The translations under genes were made by a program, and so were the position numbers. Under the pieces are notes generated by a model that searched no databases, was not told the DNA's origin, and saw only the letters and a program-made list of their open reading frames with translations. Below are positions 6,297 through 33,085 of a stretch of 64,000 bases of DNA, one piece after another. Source of the DNA: an uncultured Acholeplasmatales bacterium (GTDB taxonomy: Bacteria > Bacillota_I > Bacilli_A > Acholeplasmatales > Anaeroplasmataceae); the NCBI GenBank assembly GCA_944324805.1, contig CALUXS010000002.1, positions 62,001-126,000 on the forward strand. The letters run 5' to 3'. Numbering within the stretch: position 1 is the first letter of the stretch; every line of letters starts with the position of its first letter.

Positions 6297-8306
6297 ATGA
6301 AAAAATGCTTTGCTTTCTGTATTTTTATTTTTTCACTAATATTTTTATCTAGTTGTAATAATGAGCAAACAAATCCTAGTACTGATAAAAAGGAATTTGA
6401 AATACAATTTGTTGTTGAAGGTGAAATAGTACAAACGAGCACAGTAAAAGAAGGAGAGATTCCAAAATATTTAGGACCTACTCCAACTAAAGAAGCAACA
6501 AAGGAATATTCTTATACCTTTTCTGATTGGACACCTAAAATTGAACCAGCAAATAAAAATCAAACATATAATGCTTTATTTGAGGAAAGTAGAAATCAAT
6601 ATGAGGTTTGCTTTTATGATTTCAATGGTAAATTATTAGACAAAGTGTCTTACTATTATAATGAGATACCAACTTATACATATGAACCAGAAGATACTAA
6701 AGAATGGGATTATGAGTTTTATGGTTGGGGTTTATCAATGAATTCTGATGATATAACAGATTTAATGCCTGTCGAAGGAAATATTTCTTATTATGCGAAG
6801 GTTACTTTTAAAAAGCAAGTATATAATATAAGCTTCGTAACTAATGGAGGTAGTGAGTTATTACCTTTAGAACTAAATTATGGAGATATTTTAAATTTAG
6901 ATGAAATAAAACCAACTAGGGATGGTTATCATTTTGTTGGTTGGTGCTTAGATGAAAACTTATCAATTAAGGCAGATTCAAATATTGAGATTAATCAGGA
7001 CTTGACTTTATATGCTGCTTGGAATGAGAAAGTTGATATTCTTTCTTATCTAAAGGCATTATTAAGTGGCTATCAAATGAGTCCGTATAGTTTTTTACCA
7101 GAAACATTATTGCCAAATTATAATCCAAATCTTGTAGATAGTTCAACTATAGCATATGATTTTACAAAATTTGTTAATGTAGATGATATTGTTTATGGGG
7201 GATTTGGTGAACAATGGGCAATGGTATTAGATAATTTAGAACAATCAATGAATTTTTATAACCTATTAAGCGTTGTAGATTCGTTATCTACAACTGCCAT
7301 TACCGCATTTGAAAGTTATCTAGATAAAAATCCAGCTGATACAGCTAATTATGAATTCGAGGATGGTATTTATACTATAACTATAATTTTTGAAAATGAT
7401 ATAATGAGTTTCGGTATTTCATATGAAGGTAATTTCCCTATTTTTGGTGAGCAAAAGTTAGAACTTTTACTAAGTTATGATGTGAATACAGGTGAAAGGA
7501 TAGGAAGAATTGAACTTGGTGCAGCTAATGTTATTAAATATGAGGTTAAAGGGAATTCATATACTTTTGCTATTAAGTATCTAGGAATTAGAAGAGCATA
7601 TTTCAATATTAATAAAGATGCAAATAATAATGTAAGTGGTCATATCTATGAATTTATTGAGTTAAGTGATAAAACATTATCTAGTAGTGCAGCAGATTTT
7701 TATATTAATGAAGAATATGCATCAGTAGTTGGTAATAAAGCAAGTGGTATAATTGGCTTCACAGGAGTAATAAATGAGCTTTATGATGTTACGACTGGTA
7801 AAATGCAAGGGTATGAGGTAAGAGAAATATTAGATGTTGCAGGAATAAATGTTACTTATAATACCCTTTGGTTCAATCTTGATGAATTAAAAGGAATTAA
7901 CACCATTAAGGTCTTAGACGGTACATCGTCTCTTAACAAAAATGATATCTATGTAAATGGTAATGATAAAATTTTTGCTATTAAAGAATGTGGTGGTTTA
8001 AGTTTAAAAGCAAAATCAAGACGATATGATATTGAGATGAGAAAAAATTATCTATATACCTATGATTCATCTTTAGATGAATATACTAGGGTAGAAGTTG
8101 AAATACCAATGTTATTTGTTCAAGCTGAATATCTAGAAGAATTAGAAAATGACATTGAAAATAAAAATGCTTATCTAGATGTTAAGCTTAGTACTAATCA
8201 AGGTATAATATCGAAGATACAAGATGATTATGCTAAATTAATAGATGTTTTTTTAAATAATAAAGAAAACATTACTGCTGATGATATTTTAGATTATATT
8301 AGTTAA
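6297..8306 (+). CDS. large surface lipoprotein with InlB-type B repeats
   Basis: The 669-residue protein begins with a lipoprotein signal (hydrophobic stretch then LSSC, Cys at residue 20), so it should be lipid-anchored outside the membrane. Residues about 30-100 and 105-165 are degenerate repeats, and about 170-238 is a clear InlB B-repeat (Listeria-Bacteroides repeat), ending with GYHFVGWCLD and LTLYAAWNEK. The remaining approximately 430 residues are beta-rich and I do not recognise them. Such repeats are common in surface adhesins of gut Firmicutes. It follows the PH-domain gene by 11 bases and is closed by a strong terminator. Confidence 0.85.
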   Translation: MKKCFAFCIFIFSLIFLSSCNNEQTNPSTDKKEFEIQFVVEGEIVQTSTVKEGEIPKYLGPTPTKEATKEYSYTFSDWTPKIEPANKNQTYNALFEESRNQYEVCFYDFNGKLLDKVSYYYNEIPTYTYEPEDTKEWDYEFYGWGLSMNSDDITDLMPVEGNISYYAKVTFKKQVYNISFVTNGGSELLPLELNYGDILNLDEIKPTRDGYHFVGWCLDENLSIKADSNIEINQDLTLYAAWNEKVDILSYLKALLSGYQMSPYSFLPETLLPNYNPNLVDSSTIAYDFTKFVNVDDIVYGGFGEQWAMVLDNLEQSMNFYNLLSVVDSLSTTAITAFESYLDKNPADTANYEFEDGIYTITIIFENDIMSFGISYEGNFPIFGEQKLELLLSYDVNTGERIGRIELGAANVIKYEVKGNSYTFAIKYLGIRRAYFNINKDANNNVSGHIYEFIELSDKTLSSSAADFYINEEYASVVGNKASGIIGFTGVINELYDVTTGKMQGYEVREILDVAGINVTYNTLWFNLDELKGINTIKVLDGTSSLNKNDIYVNGNDKIFAIKECGGLSLKAKSRRYDIEMRKNYLYTYDSSLDEYTRVEVEIPMLFVQAEYLEELENDIENKNAYLDVKLSTNQGIISKIQDDYAKLIDVFLNNKENITADDILDYIS

Positions 8307-8622: not shown

Positions 8623-8656
8623 AGAGGATTTGTTTTACAAATCCTCTTTATTTTTT
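8623..8656 (+). terminator. strong hairpin terminator or attenuator before the DUF1538 gene
   Basis: AGAGGATTTGT pairs perfectly with ACAAATCCTCT (11 base pairs, TTT loop), followed by TTATTTTTT. The ribosome binding site of the next gene begins only 3 bases after the T-run and I see no promoter in between, so it could act as an attenuator. Confidence 0.8.
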
Positions 8657-8673
8657 GTAAGGAGTTGATAAGG

Positions 8674-10203
8674 GTGAATTTACTATTGAAAAAAATACGA
8701 GATGGCTTTATTTCTATTTTGCCGATCTATCTCATAATAATTATTATAAATTTTACTAACTATTTAGAACTAAGTCTTATTGAATTAGTCACATTTTCAA
8801 TTTGCTCTATTCTAGCTGCAGTTGGTATCGGTTTTTTTAATGTTGGTGCCGATCTTGCAATGACACCAATGGGAAAAATAAGTGGTTCTGGTTTAACAAA
8901 GCAAGGTAAAGCAAGTATATTATTAATAATTGCCTTTCTTTTAGGCTTTTTTGTTACAATAGCTGAACCTAATTTACAAGTTCTTGGCAATCAAGTTAAA
9001 TCATTAATATCCCCATGGGTTTTAATTTTGGCTATTGCATTAGGCGTTGGAATATTTTTGGTAGTTGCAATCCTAAGAATAATCTTTAGGTTAAATTTAG
9101 CTAAGCTTTTACTATTCTTATATTTTGTTGCATTTTCATTAGTGATTTTAGTTATATATAAAGGAAATGGTAATTTACTAGCTTTAGCTATGGACTCTGG
9201 TGGTGTTACTACAGGACCTATTACTGTTCCTTTTATGATGGCCATTTGTATAGGTATATCCTCTGTTATTTCTAGAAAGAGTGATAAGGAAATGAGCTTC
9301 GGTTTAATAGGACTATCATCGATAGGATCTATTATTATTGTTTTAGGAATAAGCCTTTTTATTAATGGAAATTCATCAGATTTTGTGATTGGTGATTATG
9401 AGCTAAAACAAAATTTTTTGATGGTGATATTGGAAAATATATTGACATCACTTAAGGATGTTTCATTATCACTATTATTAATAAGCTTATTTTTTATAAT
9501 TTGTAATTTTTTATTTTTTCATTTACCAAAAAGAAAATTATATAGCCTAGGAATTGGTGTTCTTTATACGCTTGTGGGATTAGTATTATTTCTAGGAGCT
9601 GTTAATGCAGGATTTATGCCATTAGGTTATAAAATAGGTGAAAGTTTAGCCGCAAACAAAACAATAATTTTAGGTTTTAGCTTTATTTTGGGTGCTTTGA
9701 CGGTTGTAGCAGAACCAGCAATTCATGTTTTAAATAGTCAGGTAGAAGAAATAACAGGTGGTATTTTAAGAAAAAGAACAATGCTAATTGGTCTAATGAT
9801 TGGCGTTGGAATATCACTTATGCTATCAATACTAAGAATAATTTATCATTTTGATATTATGTACTATTTGATACCTGGTTTTGGTATTTGCTTGTTACTT
9901 ACTTTTTTTATACCAAAAGTTTATACGGCAATTGCTTTTGATTCTGGTGGTGTTGCAGCAGGCGCATTAACTTCCGGCTTCATTTTACCACTAGCTGTAG
10001 GAGCTACAGTTGTTTTACAAGGAGAAGGAAGTGTTTTAACAGATTCATTTGGAATTGTCGCAATGGTTGCATTAACACCTGTTCTTGTAATAGAATTTTT
10101 AGGCTTAATAGCAATTATTAACAATAAGAGAAGAATTAAAAAGCAAGTAGAAAAAATGATTTCTAAAAAAGATGAAATTATAATTAGATTTGAGGTGCGA
10201 TAA
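8674..10203 (+). CDS. DUF1538 two-repeat membrane protein
   Basis: The 509-residue integral membrane protein is an internal duplication. Repeat 1 (about 1-245) and repeat 2 (about 255-490) each contain a motif like AEPNLQVLGNQV / AEPAIHVLNSQVEE and later MDSGGVTTGPITVPF / FDSGGVAAGALTSGF, signatures of DUF1538. About twelve hydrophobic segments are visible. The inverted-repeat style and conserved acidic/Gly motifs suggest a transporter; the substrate is unknown. GTG 8674 is chosen because AAGGAG ends 9 bases before it, whereas TTG 8665 abuts the site. Its stop overlaps the next gene by one base, and two P-II-like genes follow. Confidence 0.85.
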   Translation: MNLLLKKIRDGFISILPIYLIIIIINFTNYLELSLIELVTFSICSILAAVGIGFFNVGADLAMTPMGKISGSGLTKQGKASILLIIAFLLGFFVTIAEPNLQVLGNQVKSLISPWVLILAIALGVGIFLVVAILRIIFRLNLAKLLLFLYFVAFSLVILVIYKGNGNLLALAMDSGGVTTGPITVPFMMAICIGISSVISRKSDKEMSFGLIGLSSIGSIIIVLGISLFINGNSSDFVIGDYELKQNFLMVILENILTSLKDVSLSLLLISLFFIICNFLFFHLPKRKLYSLGIGVLYTLVGLVLFLGAVNAGFMPLGYKIGESLAANKTIILGFSFILGALTVVAEPAIHVLNSQVEEITGGILRKRTMLIGLMIGVGISLMLSILRIIYHFDIMYYLIPGFGICLLLTFFIPKVYTAIAFDSGGVAAGALTSGFILPLAVGATVVLQGEGSVLTDSFGIVAMVALTPVLVIEFLGLIAIINNKRRIKKQVEKMISKKDEIIIRFEVR

Positions 10204-10589
10204 TGATAAATAGAATTCAAAAGAAAAAAAATAATGATGAGACACCTAAAAAATTATTTTTATTAATTTCAATTTTACCACATAATAAAAGATCACTTTT
10301 AATGGATATTATAGAAGAGTTTGAGGTAAATTATCATATATCACTTTTTGGTAGAGGCGTGGCAGATGAAAAGGTAAAAGAAATGTTAGGCTTGAATGAT
10401 AATCATAGAGATATATTATTAAGTATTATCCGTGAGGATAAGGTTAAGGATTGTATTGCAAAAGTTGAAGACAAATTGACAACATTAAAAGCTGGTGGTA
10501 TTGCTTTCGCAATTCCTTTTGAAAGTATAATTGGAGTGAAAAACTATTTATTTTGTGCTAATTTAGGAGGCTTGAAAAATGGAAAATAA
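10203..10589 (+). CDS. P-II-like regulatory protein 1
   Basis: The 128-residue protein has a basic extension of about 20 residues and then the ferredoxin-like pattern of the P-II superfamily: KKLFLLISILPHNKRSLLMDII, SLFGRGVA, DILLSIIREDKVKDCIAKVE and GGIAFAIPFESIIG. P-II proteins are trimers that bind nucleotides and dock on transporters or enzymes. The classical T-loop tyrosine motif is not apparent. Start overlaps the DUF1538 stop (TAATG) and its end overlaps the next P-II-like gene by 11 bases, so the three products are probably made in fixed proportion. Assignment by pattern and context. Confidence 0.75.
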   Translation: MINRIQKKKNNDETPKKLFLLISILPHNKRSLLMDIIEEFEVNYHISLFGRGVADEKVKEMLGLNDNHRDILLSIIREDKVKDCIAKVEDKLTTLKAGGIAFAIPFESIIGVKNYLFCANLGGLKNGK

Positions 10590-10917
10590 TTTAGTATTAA
10601 TAGTGGCAATTGTTAATAATGGTTATGCTGAAGATTTAGTTGAATTAGCAAAATCAAAGGGTGCAAAGGGAGCAACTATTATAAATGGAACAGGTAGTGT
10701 TCGTCCTGAGGCAGAAAAATTATATGGAATTACTATTCATCCCGAAAAAGAGATTATTTTTCTAACTGTAATAGAAAAAATAAGCAGTAGAATATTAAAA
10801 TCTATCTACGAGAGTTTTGGTTCAACTAGCCTAGCACAAGGAGTAGCATTTACGCTTCCTATTAGCTATGCTACATCTAATTTAGAGTCGCAATATTTAA
10901 CAAAAGAAAATGATTAG
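10579..10917 (+). CDS. P-II-like regulatory protein 2
   Basis: The 112-residue protein fits the P-II fold: LVLIVAIVNNGYAEDLVELA, then GAKGATIINGTGSVRPEAEK (matching the family's GA.GGTII.GRGT block), IHPEKEIIFLTVIEK and QGVAFTLPISYAT. It would bind nucleotide at the subunit interface. It probably forms homo- or heterotrimers with P-II-like protein 1 to control the DUF1538 membrane protein. ATG start lies within the end of the previous gene. No terminator is visible before the rplM promoter. Confidence 0.8.
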   Translation: MENNLVLIVAIVNNGYAEDLVELAKSKGAKGATIINGTGSVRPEAEKLYGITIHPEKEIIFLTVIEKISSRILKSIYESFGSTSLAQGVAFTLPISYATSNLESQYLTKEND

Positions 10918-27026: not shown

Positions 27027-28258
27027 AATCTTTCTTTTGCTATAGCAAGCATAAGTTTAATACGATTTTCTTGATTTACTTTAGTAGCAGATGGATCATA
27101 ATCAATTGCTACTATATTTGCATCAGGATGAATCTCTTTAATTTTTTTCATAACGCCTTTACCACAAATATGGTTAGGAAGACATCCAAATGGTTGAGCA
27201 CAAATGATATTTTCATAACCAGTCTCTACTAGTTCCATCATCTCGGCAGTTAAAAGCCAACCTTCACCCATTTTTGTACCATGAGATAAAACTCCGTTAG
27301 AAAGCTCCTTTGTTTCAGAAAAGTACTTCATAGGTGTAATTTTAGTTTTCTCTAAAGCTTTTATCATTAACTTTTCACGTCTTTTTAAATAATAGATTAA
27401 AAAGCGAGATACAAGACTTTTAGTAATTCCACTACCATAAAATTCATGATCATAAATACTATTATATAAGCAGTAGAAGATAAAACCATATAAACCAGGA
27501 ACCATTACCTCTGCTCCTTGTTCTAATAAGAAATTTTCAAGGTGATTATTTCCAAGACCAGCATATTTAATGTATATTTCACCGACAATTCCTACTTTTG
27601 GAGCTTTTTTATTTGTATCTAAATAGATATTGTCATAATCCCTAGCAATTAAATTAAGATTTTTCTTTATAGAATGGAAGCTTAAACCTTTATTATTATC
27701 AATTTCATCACTAAGCTTTTGAACCCAATAATCAGTTAATTCTTTTGTTTGTCCTTGTTTAATTTCATAAGTTTGACATTTATTTCTAATATACATTAAA
27801 AAATCACCGTAAGTCATAGCTGCAACTACTTTCTTAATTAATGTATAATTTAATTTTAAGCCACTATCTTTTTCAAGATTGCTAGCATTTAGACTTATTA
27901 CAGGAACCTGAGGATATCCTGCTTTAACTAAAGCTTTACGTAACAAATGAATATAATTAGATGCTCTACATCCTCCACCTGTTTGTGTTATCAAAAGAGC
28001 TACTTTATCTACATCATTTCTATGGTTTAATGCATCAATAAATTGCCCAATTACTAATAATGCAGGATAGCAAGTATCATTATGGACATATTTTAATCCC
28101 TCTTCAACGACACTAGCACCTTCATTATGTAATACCTCAACATTGTATCCACAGCCTCTTAAAGCATTTTCAAATAGGCGCATATGGATGTCAAGCATAT
28201 TAGGAATTAAAATAGTATGAGTTTTTCTCATTTCAGCCGTAAAACGTGGATAATCCAT
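27023..28258 (-). CDS. 2-hydroxyacyl-CoA dehydratase-related protein (COG3581-like)
   Basis: The 411-residue protein resembles the D-component-like C-terminal module of the activase-related family (COG3581): HTILIPNMLDIHMRLFENAL, NDTCYPALLVIGQFIDAL, TQTGGGCRASNYIHLLRKAL and QPFGCLPNHICGKGVMKKI, with conserved cysteines suited to an iron-sulfur cluster. Its ATG overlaps the stop of the 971-residue gene by one base (TAATG on the minus strand). In many Firmicutes the two are one polypeptide of about 1400 residues. Role in reductive activation of a low-potential iron-sulfur enzyme is inference. Confidence 0.85.
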   Translation of the reverse strand: MDYPRFTAEMRKTHTILIPNMLDIHMRLFENALRGCGYNVEVLHNEGASVVEEGLKYVHNDTCYPALLVIGQFIDALNHRNDVDKVALLITQTGGGCRASNYIHLLRKALVKAGYPQVPVISLNASNLEKDSGLKLNYTLIKKVVAAMTYGDFLMYIRNKCQTYEIKQGQTKELTDYWVQKLSDEIDNNKGLSFHSIKKNLNLIARDYDNIYLDTNKKAPKVGIVGEIYIKYAGLGNNHLENFLLEQGAEVMVPGLYGFIFYCLYNSIYDHEFYGSGITKSLVSRFLIYYLKRREKLMIKALEKTKITPMKYFSETKELSNGVLSHGTKMGEGWLLTAEMMELVETGYENIICAQPFGCLPNHICGKGVMKKIKEIHPDANIVAIDYDPSATKVNQENRIKLMLAIAKERL

Positions 28259-31173
28259 TATTTCGTACCTCCTTCTTGCTCATCTAGGGCACTGAATAAG
28301 GAACGTAAACGGATTTTTACAGCTCCTAGATTAGTAATTTCATCAATTTTTATTTGTGTATAAATTTTATCATTTCGTTCAAGAATTGATTTAACCTCAT
28401 CAGTAGTAATAGCATCTAAACCACAACCAAAGCTTACTAATTGGATTAATTCAAAATCTTTTTTAGAGGCAACATATTTAGCAGCATCATATAATCTAGC
28501 ATGATAAGTCCATTGATTTAATACATTAACACTAGATTTTGGTGTTAGATGGCTGATGCTTTCTTCAGTTACTATTGCAACATCAAAGCTGGCAATTAAT
28601 TTATCAATGCCATGATTAATTTCCGGATCTATATGATATGGTCTACCACAAAGAACAACGATTCTTTTCTTTTCTATTTGAGCAGTAGTTATTATTTCAT
28701 CTGCTTTTTTTCTTAAATAGGCTAGATAAGAAGAATATTCTTGATAAGCCTTATCTGCAGCTTCTTTATATTCCTTTTTCTTAATATCCTTAAAATATTT
28801 TGAAAGAATAGTAGGAATTTTCTTGATAAATAATTCTTTGTTATGGATACCAATAAAGTCACAAATAAAAGTGATTTTATCAATTGCCTTTACATTGTTT
28901 TCTATAGTTTCAGGGTAGTAAGCAACGATAGGGCAATTAAAATGATTGTCTCCTTTACCTTCATCAATATTATAACTCATACAAGGATAGAAGATTGTTT
29001 TCTCACCATTATTTATTAATGTTTCAATATGTCCGTGAACAAGTTTTGCAGGATAACAAACAGTATCTGATGGTATAGTATGTTGTCCTAAAGTATATGT
29101 CTTATTTGTAGAAAAACCACTATTAACTACTTCAAATCCTAGACTTGTGAAGAAAGTATACCAAAATGGCCAAAGCTCATAAATATTTAGGGCTAATGGT
29201 AAAGCTATTCTACCGCGTTTTCCTTTTACAGGTTTATAGCTTAATAATTTTTCTTTTATAGTATCATATAGATTTAGATTTGTATTACTCACCTTTTTAG
29301 TTACAGGCTTTTCACACTTATTACCACTAATAAACTTATTGTTATTTCCGAAAGTATTTACAGTAAGTAAGCAGTGATTAGGACATAATCCACAATTGAA
29401 ATTTCTTGTTTCATGTTTAAAGGCTTTTATTTCATCAAAAGTTAGGCAAGTAGATTTAGCTAGATTTAAACTTTTAGCATATAAAGCAGCACCATATGCC
29501 CCCATAACACCTGATATATTAGGGCAAACAACCTCTAGGTCTAGTTCTCGTTCAAAGGCCCTTAATACAGCTTCATTATAGAATGTTCCACCTTGTACGA
29601 CGATATGCTTGCCTAGTGTTTTAGCATTAGTAGCTCTTATTACTTTATAAATTGCGTTTTTAACAACACTTATAGATAGACCAGCTGAAATATTATCAAT
29701 TGTAGCTCCATCTTTTTGTGCCTGCTTAACAGAAGAATTCATAAATACTGTACATCTTGATCCTAAATCGACAGGCTTTTTAGCCATTAATCCTAGTTTT
29801 GCAAATTCTTCAATAGAATATCCTAAAGCATTTGCAAAGGTTTGTAAAAATGAACCACATCCAGATGAACAAGCTTCATTTAAAAAAATGTTAGAAATAG
29901 TTTGATGTTCTATTTTAAAGCATTTAATATCTTGACCACCAATGTCAATTATAAAATCGACATTAGGCATAAATTTTCTTGCAGCATAGAAATGAGCCAT
30001 TGTTTCTACTAAGCCACCATCTAAATTGAAGGCATTTTTTACTAAGTCTTCACCATAGCCTGTTGATGCTGAGCCCTTAATGTTTAATGTAGGATACTTA
30101 CTATAAAGCTCGATGAAAATTTCTTTTATTAATTGGACTGGGTTCCCCTTGTTTGGTAAGTATTTTGTAAAACGAATATTTAAGTCTTCATCCATTAATA
30201 AAAATTTTAGTGTTGTTGAACCACTATCTATACCTAGATAAAGAGGGCCATTATAGCCATCAAGTGAGTAGGTAGGAACAAAGGCTTTTTTATGTCTTTC
30301 TCTAAATTCTTTTAATTCATTTTCATTTGCAAACAATGGTGAGTTAAATGAATATGTAGTTTTATTTGAAAAACTTTCGATTTTTTTAAGTGTTTCACTT
30401 ATATTTATTTTTTCCTTTGCACAAAGACTAGCGCCTATTGCAACATAGTATAAAGAGTTTTCAGGACAAATACCTTTAACATTTAAAGCATTATCAAATG
30501 CACGTTGTAATTCAGTTAAGAAAGTTAAAGGTCCTCCTAAATAAGCAATATTACCTTTTATTTCCCTACCTTGTGCAAGTCCACCAATAGTTTGATTTAC
30601 GACTGCTTGGAAAATTGAGGCAGCAATATCACTTTTAGATGCTCCTTGATTAAGTAATGGTTGTATATCTGTTTTGGCAAATACCCCACAACGAGAAGCG
30701 ATAGAATATATTTTTTGATGATCTTTAGCAACGCCGTTGATTTCAGTTATATCCACATTTAAAAGAGTTGCCATTTGATCGATAAAAGCACCTGTACCAC
30801 CAGCGCATGAACCATTCATTCTTACTTCCATACCATCTGTAAGAAATAAAATTTTGGCGTCCTCTCCACCTAATTCTATAATACAGTCTGTTCCTGGAAT
30901 TAAGGTGTTAGCTGCAACTCTAGTAGCATAAACCTCCTGTACAAACGGAATACCAACTCCCTCAGCAAGCCCCATTCCTGCTGAACCTGATATAGCAACT
31001 GGAGTTTCATTAGTTATAAAGCCATTATTTAATAAATAATTTAATTTTTCAATGACATTATCTTTGATATGTGAATAATGTCGTTTGTAATCAGAGTATA
31101 ATATTTTGTTATTTTCATCAATAACGATACTTTTTATGGTAGTAGAACCAATATCTAATCCTAATCTATTCAT
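28258..31173 (-). CDS. acyl-CoA dehydratase activase (two BadF/HgdC-type ATPase domains + DUF2229)
   Basis: The 971-residue protein has two ASKHA-fold ATPase domains: the first (about 1-265) with LGLDIGSTTIKSIVID-like start, NGSCAGGTGAFIDQ and ASRCGVFAKTDIQ; the second (about 310-575) with LGIDSGSTTLKFLLMD, ACSSGCGSFLQTF and GSRCTVFMNSSVKQ. The two Cys in each hold a shared [4Fe-4S] cluster in HgdC homologues. A CGLCPNHC motif near 595 and a DUF2229 module (about 645-900) follow. HgdC-type proteins use ATP to push electrons to low-potential dehydratases or double-cubane proteins. Divergent promoter at 31209-31237. Confidence 0.88.
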   Translation of the reverse strand: MNRLGLDIGSTTIKSIVIDENNKILYSDYKRHYSHIKDNVIEKLNYLLNNGFITNETPVAISGSAGMGLAEGVGIPFVQEVYATRVAANTLIPGTDCIIELGGEDAKILFLTDGMEVRMNGSCAGGTGAFIDQMATLLNVDITEINGVAKDHQKIYSIASRCGVFAKTDIQPLLNQGASKSDIAASIFQAVVNQTIGGLAQGREIKGNIAYLGGPLTFLTELQRAFDNALNVKGICPENSLYYVAIGASLCAKEKINISETLKKIESFSNKTTYSFNSPLFANENELKEFRERHKKAFVPTYSLDGYNGPLYLGIDSGSTTLKFLLMDEDLNIRFTKYLPNKGNPVQLIKEIFIELYSKYPTLNIKGSASTGYGEDLVKNAFNLDGGLVETMAHFYAARKFMPNVDFIIDIGGQDIKCFKIEHQTISNIFLNEACSSGCGSFLQTFANALGYSIEEFAKLGLMAKKPVDLGSRCTVFMNSSVKQAQKDGATIDNISAGLSISVVKNAIYKVIRATNAKTLGKHIVVQGGTFYNEAVLRAFERELDLEVVCPNISGVMGAYGAALYAKSLNLAKSTCLTFDEIKAFKHETRNFNCGLCPNHCLLTVNTFGNNNKFISGNKCEKPVTKKVSNTNLNLYDTIKEKLLSYKPVKGKRGRIALPLALNIYELWPFWYTFFTSLGFEVVNSGFSTNKTYTLGQHTIPSDTVCYPAKLVHGHIETLINNGEKTIFYPCMSYNIDEGKGDNHFNCPIVAYYPETIENNVKAIDKITFICDFIGIHNKELFIKKIPTILSKYFKDIKKKEYKEAADKAYQEYSSYLAYLRKKADEIITTAQIEKKRIVVLCGRPYHIDPEINHGIDKLIASFDVAIVTEESISHLTPKSSVNVLNQWTYHARLYDAAKYVASKKDFELIQLVSFGCGLDAITTDEVKSILERNDKIYTQIKIDEITNLGAVKIRLRSLFSALDEQEGGTK

Positions 31174-31208
31174 TAGCTAACCACCCTTCATAATTTTTTT
31201 ACTTTAGA

Positions 31209-31237
31209 ATTATATTATACAAAGTATAATAAGTCAA
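31209..31237 (-). promoter_or_regulatory. promoter of the activase operon with internal palindrome
   Basis: On the minus strand: TTGACT, 17-base spacer, TATAAT. The spacer is almost filled by a perfect palindrome, ATTATAC-AAA-GTATAAT (31214-31230), a likely repressor or activator site. Confidence 0.65.
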
Positions 31238-31268
31238 TTTATTAAGTTTGAAAAATAAATAAAAAAAG

Positions 31269-31297
31269 GTTGTTAAAAACTACGAGATAAGGTATAA
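31269..31297 (+). promoter_or_regulatory. promoter for the GLUG lipoprotein gene
   Basis: TTGTTA, 17-base spacer, TATAAT; divergent from the activase promoter about 50 bases away. Confidence 0.65.
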
Positions 31298-31360
31298 TAA
31301 GCAATGCGTATAGATTTTTTTAGTTCTACATAACTATAGCTATATATTTTGGAGGTATTT

Positions 31361-33085
31361 ATGAAAAATTTGAAAAAAATCGTTGTTGGCGTTTTAGCAC
31401 TAGTTCTTACGTTGACACTAGTTGGTTGTAAAAGAAAACTAGATGGTGTTAACACAAGAATGGTTATTACAGCTAGAAGAGATAAAATAAGTGTTGTTGC
31501 TGAATTTGTTGATAGTGATGAAAGAATTTTTGACTCAATTACACCAACAGTTTACTTATATGAGATGGATGGTAATAAAGAGGGCGATGAAGTAAGCTCT
31601 AAATCTATGTCTATAAGTGAAGGAACTGATGTTGGTATTAATACAACATCAAGCGAAGTTGTTTTTGAGGATTTAGAAGAAGAAACTAGCTACAAGGTAG
31701 TGTTAAAGGCTACTAGCGATGGTTATTCTTATGAGTTAGACTCTCAAATCGTAACAACTAATGATTTAGGTTCAAGTGAAGAAACAGCAATTCCAATTTC
31801 TTCAGTTGAGGAATTCTTAGACATTCGTTATGATAGAGATGGTTATTTCAAATTAACAAGCGATATTGATTTTAATGGTGATGGAACAGAACCATATGAT
31901 TTAACTGCCATGTTTACATCTTCTTCAAATTCATTTAATGGTCAAATTGATGGTGATAACCATACAATAAGTGGATTTAAGATTGTTTCAAACAACCAAT
32001 ATAATGGTTTAGTTGGATATAATGATGGAGTAATTAAAAATTTAAATATTGAAGATGCAAGCATTGAAACAAATAGAACATCTGAAGTAAATACAGGTTT
32101 AATTGCTGGATATAATAATGGCACAATTAGTAATTGCAAAATTAATAATTCACAAGTTATCGTTAAGTCAACTGCATATAGTTTAACATATCCTTTATAT
32201 GCTGGTATGATTACTGGTACAGTTGCAGGAGATAGTACAAATATTTCTGTTGATAATTGTGAGGTTACTAATTCAAAAATTGAAGTTAGTGCAGTTCATA
32301 GAGCAACTGTTGGTGGTTTGATTGGTAGAGTTGTAGCTCCAAAAACAATTCGTTTAGGTCAAACTATTGAAAATAATATTATTAAAGATTCTGAGGTTAT
32401 CGTTTCACAAGAAAATAAAACAACAACTTCTAATGACATTATATTAAATGTTGGTGGCTTTGTTGGTTCAACTGCTCGTACAATTAGTAATGGTATTGCT
32501 AATGTAAATATTACAGTTAGAACTAAAAAGTCTGATAATGCTACCTATGAAAAAGGCTTAAAAGTTTACACTTTAAATGTTGGTGGCTTTGCTGGTGAAA
32601 CTTTGGCTAATAGTAGAGGCGTTAGCTTAAATAATGTGGCTTTTGATGGTTCTATTTTAATCGAGGGTAATAAGATAAATGATACAGATCTTACTACTAA
32701 TGCAGCTTATGAAACAAATGTTGGTGGTTTGATAGGAGCTATGAATGGTATTATAGTGAAAAATGGCGTTGTACGTTTAAATGAATTAACTATTAAAGCC
32801 ATTGAAAAATTACCAGAAGCTACTGAAGAAGGTGAAAAACTTCCTACATATTCAGTTAAATATGGTATGATCATTGGTATTCCAAATACTGATTTAGTAT
32901 ATGTAGCTAACGAAGATGAATCTCAAAGTGGAAAGATTAATTTAATCAATGTTATTAATTTAAGCAATCCAGCTACAAAAACAACTGTAACTGGCGTTGA
33001 ATCAATAATAAGTGAAACTGCTTCTAATCCTTCAGAAAGTTTAAATGGATTTGACAAATTTATTTCTGATTATTTTAATAAATAA
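31361..33085 (+). CDS. surface lipoprotein with GLUG-type beta-helical repeats
   Basis: The 574-residue protein has a lipoprotein signal with lipobox LVGC (Cys at residue 23), a short fibronectin-like segment (about 35-125), then repeated units of the GLUG kind: YNGLVGYNDGVIKNLNI, NTGLIAGYNNGTISNCKI, VGGLIGRV, VGGFVGS, VGGFAGE and VGGLIGAM, suggesting a beta-solenoid. Anchored to the outer face of the membrane; probably adhesive or structural. ATG 31361 is chosen with GGAGGT 4 bases upstream; the TTG at 31349 overlaps that site. Transcribed alone. Confidence 0.85.
   Translation: MKNLKKIVVGVLALVLTLTLVGCKRKLDGVNTRMVITARRDKISVVAEFVDSDERIFDSITPTVYLYEMDGNKEGDEVSSKSMSISEGTDVGINTTSSEVVFEDLEEETSYKVVLKATSDGYSYELDSQIVTTNDLGSSEETAIPISSVEEFLDIRYDRDGYFKLTSDIDFNGDGTEPYDLTAMFTSSSNSFNGQIDGDNHTISGFKIVSNNQYNGLVGYNDGVIKNLNIEDASIETNRTSEVNTGLIAGYNNGTISNCKINNSQVIVKSTAYSLTYPLYAGMITGTVAGDSTNISVDNCEVTNSKIEVSAVHRATVGGLIGRVVAPKTIRLGQTIENNIIKDSEVIVSQENKTTTSNDIILNVGGFVGSTARTISNGIANVNITVRTKKSDNATYEKGLKVYTLNVGGFAGETLANSRGVSLNNVAFDGSILIEGNKINDTDLTTNAAYETNVGGLIGAMNGIIVKNGVVRLNELTIKAIEKLPEATEEGEKLPTYSVKYGMIIGIPNTDLVYVANEDESQSGKINLINVINLSNPATKTTVTGVESIISETASNPSESLNGFDKFISDYFNK

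Follow-up and report, generated by a model that had tools for sequence, protein, structure and literature searches.

A three-gene unit encoding a DUF1538 membrane protein and two P-II-like proteins, a candidate P-II-gated cation/proton antiporter of an uncultured Acholeplasmatales bacterium

Three overlapping genes at 8674-10917 of the window (the whole stretch of 64,000 nucleotides analysed here) encode a membrane protein with tandem DUF1538 repeats together with two different P-II-like proteins, which we name P-II-A (second gene of the unit) and P-II-B (third gene). We consider it probable that they form a P-II-gated cation/proton antiporter, in which P-II-A docks on the tail of the antiporter, P-II-B senses a ligand, and the two occur as a 1:1 pair. 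The open reading frames and their overlaps of 1 and 11 bases were found as an earlier sequence-only reading of this DNA had described them: the TAA stop of the DUF1538 gene ends at 10203, where the ATG of P-II-A starts, and the ATG of P-II-B at 10579 lies inside the P-II-A gene, which ends at 10589. As judged by eye, the Shine-Dalgarno spacing was better for the GTG at 8674 than for the upstream TTG at 8665. Since the unit is conserved in other genomes, the three-gene arrangement is more than chance. The features of the unit are as follows.

8623-8647, forward strand: terminator-like hairpin just upstream of the DUF1538/P-II unit (consensus scan)
8674-10203, forward strand: tandem DUF1538 membrane protein (UmpAB-like), 509 amino acids, GTG start, about 14 predicted spans (PF07556)
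About 8731-9357, forward strand: first DUF1538 repeat (family search of the own genome, converted to window coordinates)
About 9481-10110, forward strand: second DUF1538 repeat (family search of the own genome, converted to window coordinates)
10171-10191, forward strand: C-terminal tail motif of the antiporter, DEIIIRF (DDxQIIxF-type in relatives), predicted to be cytosolic (locus comparison, positive-inside count)
10203-10589, forward strand: P-II-A, divergent P-II-like protein, 128 amino acids, with a charged N-terminal extension and a C-terminal helix (AlphaFold2 model, fold matches, homology to P-II-B)
10545-10562, forward strand: C-terminal motif of P-II-A, YLFCAN (YxFLxN in relatives; alignment of antiporter-linked A proteins)
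10579-10917, forward strand: P-II-B, P-II-like protein, 112 amino acids, keeping a GAxGxT strand motif and lysine 57 (sub-threshold PF00543 match, family-level matches, residue counts)

Linkage of DUF1538 and P-II genes across genomes

The proposal of a transporter controlled by neighbouring P-II proteins, as made from the sequence alone, depended on their co-occurrence in other genomes, and this was nearly perfect in the sampled phylum. When 392 genomes were searched with DUF1538 and P-II-B profiles, DUF1538 was detected in 95 and a P-II-B match in 107; 94 genomes contained both and 284 neither. The single genome with DUF1538 and no P-II-B match was G169, a partial match with an E-value of 3.4e-09. 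P-II-B was matched in 13 of the 297 genomes that lacked DUF1538, of which nine matches were weak (E 3.5e-05 to 3.8e-09, eight in one family) and four strong (genomes G018, G179, G191, and G195).

The neighbourhoods of DUF1538 were read in 94 of the 95 genomes. Including those of the best 80 of 588 relatives, P-II genes adjoined DUF1538 at all 183 loci with readable flanking DNA, namely 88 tabulated loci, 80 loci from a contig scan, eight further loci of the phylum, and seven plasmid records. Of the 89 tabulated loci, one is truncated within DUF1538 by the end of its contig; each of the remaining 88 had adjoining P-II open reading frames on the same strand, arranged as DUF1538-A-B (61 loci), as DUF1538 with a fused P-II pair (22), or otherwise (5, two of them with split DUF1538 genes). 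The contig-scan loci, being the best matches, are biased towards the window; they carry the labels Bacillota, Bacteroidota, and Fibrobacter MAGs, taken as labelled, and in two of them the contig ends after A. Seven of nine matching plasmid records were counted, the other two being near-copies, and their annotation already lists an adjacent 'P-II family nitrogen regulator' without comment.

The linkage extended to Clostridia and to two plasmid lineages of Alphaproteobacteria, which constituted the entire sample of Pseudomonadota. The plasmids of Methylocystis and Chelativorans carry two separate DUF1538 genes followed by a single P-II gene, with no tail motif, indicating that the two-P-II scheme is not required for function everywhere. 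The gene order of the window is reversed at another locus (L077:4040-6388), where two split DUF1538 genes come after three genes of the P-II-like kind. DUF1538-like matches were also present in six short, unannotated records labelled as phage (OR847559, MT835770, and four others), which are likely mislabelled bacterial DNA.

The DUF1538 membrane protein

Membership of the membrane protein in DUF1538 was clear from PF07556, which scored 372.4 bits against a gathering cut-off of 22.6 and matched two stretches, so that both DUF1538 units lie in one polypeptide. The sequence-only reading had called it a transporter of unknown substrate. This description is outdated, because UmpAB of Halomonas zhaodongensis, a heterodimer of two DUF1538 proteins, is an antiporter that exchanges Na+ (Li+, K+) for H+ in a pH-dependent manner (PMC5484666). 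Judging from this family relationship, the window protein is probably a sodium/potassium-proton exchanger whose two DUF1538 units would act together. Its scores with UmpA (NF041627, 138 bits) and UmpB (NF041628, 119.2 bits) were far under the equivalog cut-offs of 490 and 500, respectively; it is thus a member of the UmpAB family and at most a putative functional equivalent, with antiport and its ions as predictions for this protein.

An AlphaFold2 model of the protein, based on 59 sequences, had a pLDDT of 92.1 and a pTM of 0.90. Although the fold was confidently modelled, neither a convincing solved structural relative nor a known transporter fold was obtained with Foldseek (best E 0.036, TM 0.12) or VIA-align (best Z 5.0 over 128 residues), a result that is neither proof nor disproof of a new fold. 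Across the 59 sequences E98, P99, and D423 were invariant, and D174 and E347 nearly so; two Asp and one Glu are reported as common to UmpA and UmpB homologs (PMC5484666). With about 14 spans assigned by us from the model helices, 20 Lys and Arg residues were counted inside and 4 outside, and this positive-inside count indicates that both ends of the protein are cytosolic and that its two halves are inverted. The protein would be pictured as a monovalent cation/proton antiporter made of two inverted seven-helix halves in one polypeptide.

The P-II pair might instead control a DUF1538 transporter for a substrate other than Na+, Li+, or K+, such as a metal or an anion (bicarbonate, for instance), the UmpAB annotation being misleading. 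Three points fit such a substrate: known transporters have P-II partners that respond to carbon and nitrogen status, the scores lie below the UmpA/UmpB equivalog cut-offs, and the model has no solved relative from which a substrate could be inferred. However, acidic residues (E98, D423, D174, and E347) are kept in both halves, in line with the UmpA/UmpB residues, and the family member that has been measured is a cation/proton antiporter (PMC5484666); we regard the other substrates as rather unlikely.

Fold and conserved residues of the P-II-like proteins

Both small proteins had been claimed to be P-II folds, and a structure search that could have denied this returned matches of the P-II type. 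P-II-B alone reached 21 bits with PF00543, below the gathering cut-off of 25, while 27 of its 29 relatives matched this family at E<=0.01, and the family profile of P-II-B picked up P-II proteins with solved structures, the best at E 4.8e-06. No Pfam match was obtained for P-II-A itself, and 10 of its 32 relatives matched PF00543. The assignment of P-II-A comes from its homology to P-II-B, the two families being aligned by hhalign with a probability of 98.9 and an E-value of 1.4e-17, and from an AlphaFold2 model (82 sequences, pLDDT 85.3, pTM 0.74) with the strand-helix order of P-II. In a Foldseek search with this model, all 22 matches at E<=0.001 were P-II or P-II-like proteins or Thermus proteins of the P-II family, with SbtB, PstA, and GlnB/GlnK among them; by VIA-align, CutA1 (Z 11.6, rmsd 3.0, 102 aligned) was tied with a P-II-like protein (Z 11.5). 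The model thus places P-II-A in the P-II superfamily fold.

Residue conservation differed between the two proteins. The strand motif was kept in P-II-B (G28 in 159, G31 in 160, and T33 in 154 of 161 proteins) and lost in P-II-A (G28 in 30 and T33 in 22 of 154, Gly falling outside the six commonest residues at position 31), and for this reason P-II-A may not be a sensor at all; two sensors for different nucleotides had been one suggestion of the sequence-only reading. Lysine 57 was common to both, as Lys in 160 of 161 B proteins and as Lys or Arg in 153 of 154 A proteins. Another position, which from the family alignment we take to correspond to the ATP-phosphate-binding lysine of GDGK in classical GlnB/GlnK, was Ile, Val, Leu, or Met in 373 of 375 P-II domains: in all 161 B and all 154 A proteins, and in 29 of 30 each of the second (FC, one Cys) and first (FN, one Phe) domains of fused proteins. 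The GDGK lysine is therefore absent in both P-II-A and P-II-B.

The expectation that this would not be ordinary nitrogen control was borne out. We rejected classical nitrogen control on three grounds: a P-II match below threshold, a substituted ATP lysine, and no further P-II match anywhere in the genome. Between residues 33 and 57 of P-II-B, the stretch presumed to include the counterpart of the conserved T-loop Tyr of classical GlnB/GlnK, no position was Tyr in the majority of proteins; 37 of 161 B proteins and 88 of 154 A proteins had some Tyr there. A diadenylate cyclase is present in the same genome, and c-di-AMP is accordingly one possible ligand among the adenine nucleotides.

Replacement of the ATP lysine in nearly all domains, and the leading Z score of P-II-A with CutA1 chains, would also be expected if both proteins were fixed, CutA-like structural subunits of the transporter and not sensors. 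Against this, P-II-B keeps its conserved Gly, Thr, and Lys positions, as a ligand pocket would, and the P-II-like fold neighbours SbtB and PstA bind nucleotides according to the titles of their PDB entries. The structural role thus seems very improbable, and we retain P-II-B as the putative sensor.

Tail motif, fusions, and putative mechanism

At 143 of 147 loci where A and B are separate genes, the antiporter ended with a variable linker followed by a DDxQIIxF-type motif. The four remaining loci, kept out of the tail-positive count, were inspected by eye and consisted of three near-variants (L037, L038, L171) and one broken frame (L181). The motif was also present at both loci cut off after A, at none of the four loci whose P-II domains are all B-type, and at 10 of the 30 fused loci, where it followed the type of the first half: it was found at 10 of the 12 loci whose first half is A-type and at none of the 18 whose first half is not. 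Two A-type loci (L042 and L092) had no tail motif. On a DUF1538 tree of 83 loci built without the tail, the A type changed once and the tail twice, giving one independent contrast; the tail and the A-type P-II arose once, together, on one branch. Because this is a single independent event, the association does not count statistically as evidence of co-evolution.

P-II-A carries a C-terminal motif of its own. In 149 antiporter-linked A proteins, YxFLxN showed Phe at alignment position 115 in 121 and Asn or Asp at position 118 in 126, and a stricter pattern was matched by 111. It was kept in none of five orphan A proteins, three of which are close relatives and one of which (L207) is very divergent.

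Natural fusions of A and B, invariably with A as the first half, were found at 30 loci. On a weakly resolved tree of 116 domains, all 30 second halves fell on the B side, and 12 of the 30 first halves grouped with A, the other 18 forming a group of their own. The fusion state required at least three changes on the DUF1538 tree, which means that fusion recurred or was reversed. This recurrent fusion points to an A:B stoichiometry of 1:1, which would suit a stack of two trimers (A3B3) no less than the mixed trimer that the sequence-only reading had suggested as one option.

In the mechanism that we favour, the two paralogous P-II-like proteins would control the antiporter by direct contact. P-II-A would be the docking subunit on the DDxQIIxF-type cytosolic tail, perhaps through its own YxFLxN helix. 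P-II-B, with its Gly/Thr strand and invariant lysine, would be the sensing subunit and would read a small ligand, most likely of the adenine nucleotide or cyclic dinucleotide class. A and B would work in a 1:1 ratio, in the simplest case as two stacked trimers, and would gate ion exchange in the manner of GlnK with AmtB and of SbtB with SbtA. Retention of the unit in relatives suggests that the sensors may turn the exchanger on and off.

Orphan pairs speak most strongly against A and B acting exclusively with the antiporter. Four genomes have an A+B pair but no DUF1538 match; in them the pair (L203, L204, L205, L206) outlived the antiporter or never needed it. At L203 and L204 it adjoins genes resembling RluD and RsmI (names assigned by eye). 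A divergent A/B-like pair at L207:3692-4376 is immediately followed by genes for an ABC ATPase and a permease, which by eye resemble FetA/FetB. Orphan pairs and a pair beside ABC-transporter-like genes imply that A+B can serve something else. Hence one could suppose that the A-B complex acts on other targets, such as a transporter or an enzyme, and that its linkage to DUF1538 reflects shared physiology with no direct contact. This appears improbable, as all but one of the DUF1538 genomes hold a P-II-B partner, the genes of the unit overlap or abut, and the C-terminal motif of A is lost in the orphans.

P-II proteins gate ammonium and bicarbonate transporters; SbtA is a bicarbonate transporter and SbtB its P-II-like regulator. 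The window unit shares with SbtA-SbtB the combination of a membrane transporter with a P-II-like protein, and SbtB (PDB 7egk) was among the top fold matches of P-II-A. In contrast, SbtB is a single kind of subunit whereas the window unit has two P-II paralogs, and for DUF1538 no convincing match to the fold of a solved transporter was obtained. AmtB-GlnK is likewise an operon-linked transporter and P-II, but its transporter is of another family and the window P-IIs lack the classical ATP lysine.

To our knowledge, neither PstA nor PotN has a DUF1538 partner. The window P-IIs resemble PstA (PDB 4wk1) and PotN (PDB 7o4x), Gram-positive P-II-like proteins outside nitrogen control, in fold; membership in PstA was rejected, as the window proteins gave no PstA-family Pfam match at E<=1. 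As proposed for the window, a gene of the P-II family, PII-NG of Geobacter, shares an operon with a proton/cation antiporter, of the CzcABC-type cation efflux kind, but that system is a metal efflux pump of another family with a single P-II (PMC7726332). Halomonas UmpAB resembles the window protein in having two homologous seven-helix units of the DUF1538 family, which are needed together there, and conserved acidic residues; it is encoded by two separate genes, and a term search of PMC5484666 found no mention of P-II, whereas in the window both units are fused in one gene, the tail is conserved, and two P-II genes follow.

Transporters paired with P-II proteins are already known, as are antiporters of the DUF1538 family. 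Term searches of titles and the beginnings of abstracts in the collection of published papers searched found neither the DUF1538/P-II pairing, nor the obligate two-P-II form, nor the tail motif. It is possible, though less likely than not, that the unit is the first P-II-gated cation/proton antiporter of its kind, with an unsolved inverted-repeat fold, an obligate A3B3, A as adaptor, and B as sensor. If the linkage holds, direct metabolic gating by P-II would extend to pH and ion homeostasis; if the two-protein A3B3 reading is true, signalling by a nucleotide or second messenger would be coupled to such homeostasis in Bacillota of the gut and in other bacteria. Because the two different P-II domains form an obligate pair and have been fused repeatedly, the unit also poses the structural question of how paired units assemble into a protein of threefold symmetry, and the tail motif is a short peptide open to binding tests.

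No sodium or c-di-AMP riboswitch was matched by Rfam in the window stretch at E<=1 or, at the gathering score, in 26 further loci. A fluoride riboswitch at L097:6539-6610 lies just downstream, not upstream, of a DUF1538 and fused P-II unit. The hairpin at 8623-8647 ends about 27 bases before the GTG and leaves little room for a promoter, and in the same-genus relatives L064, L080, and L081 a hairpin is also close upstream of DUF1538. It possibly serves attenuation, or is merely the terminator of the upstream gene; attenuation as a general feature was rejected, since a simple scan found a hairpin at only 13 of 83 loci. Upstream of the unit, 6297-8306 encodes a lipoprotein-like protein of 669 amino acids that carries a Listeria-Bacteroides repeat (PF09479, 65 bits). 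Elsewhere in the window, GC skew dropped to -0.03 at 28001-32000, compared with about +0.16 to +0.28 in the remainder, perhaps owing to genes on the other strand or to an insert.
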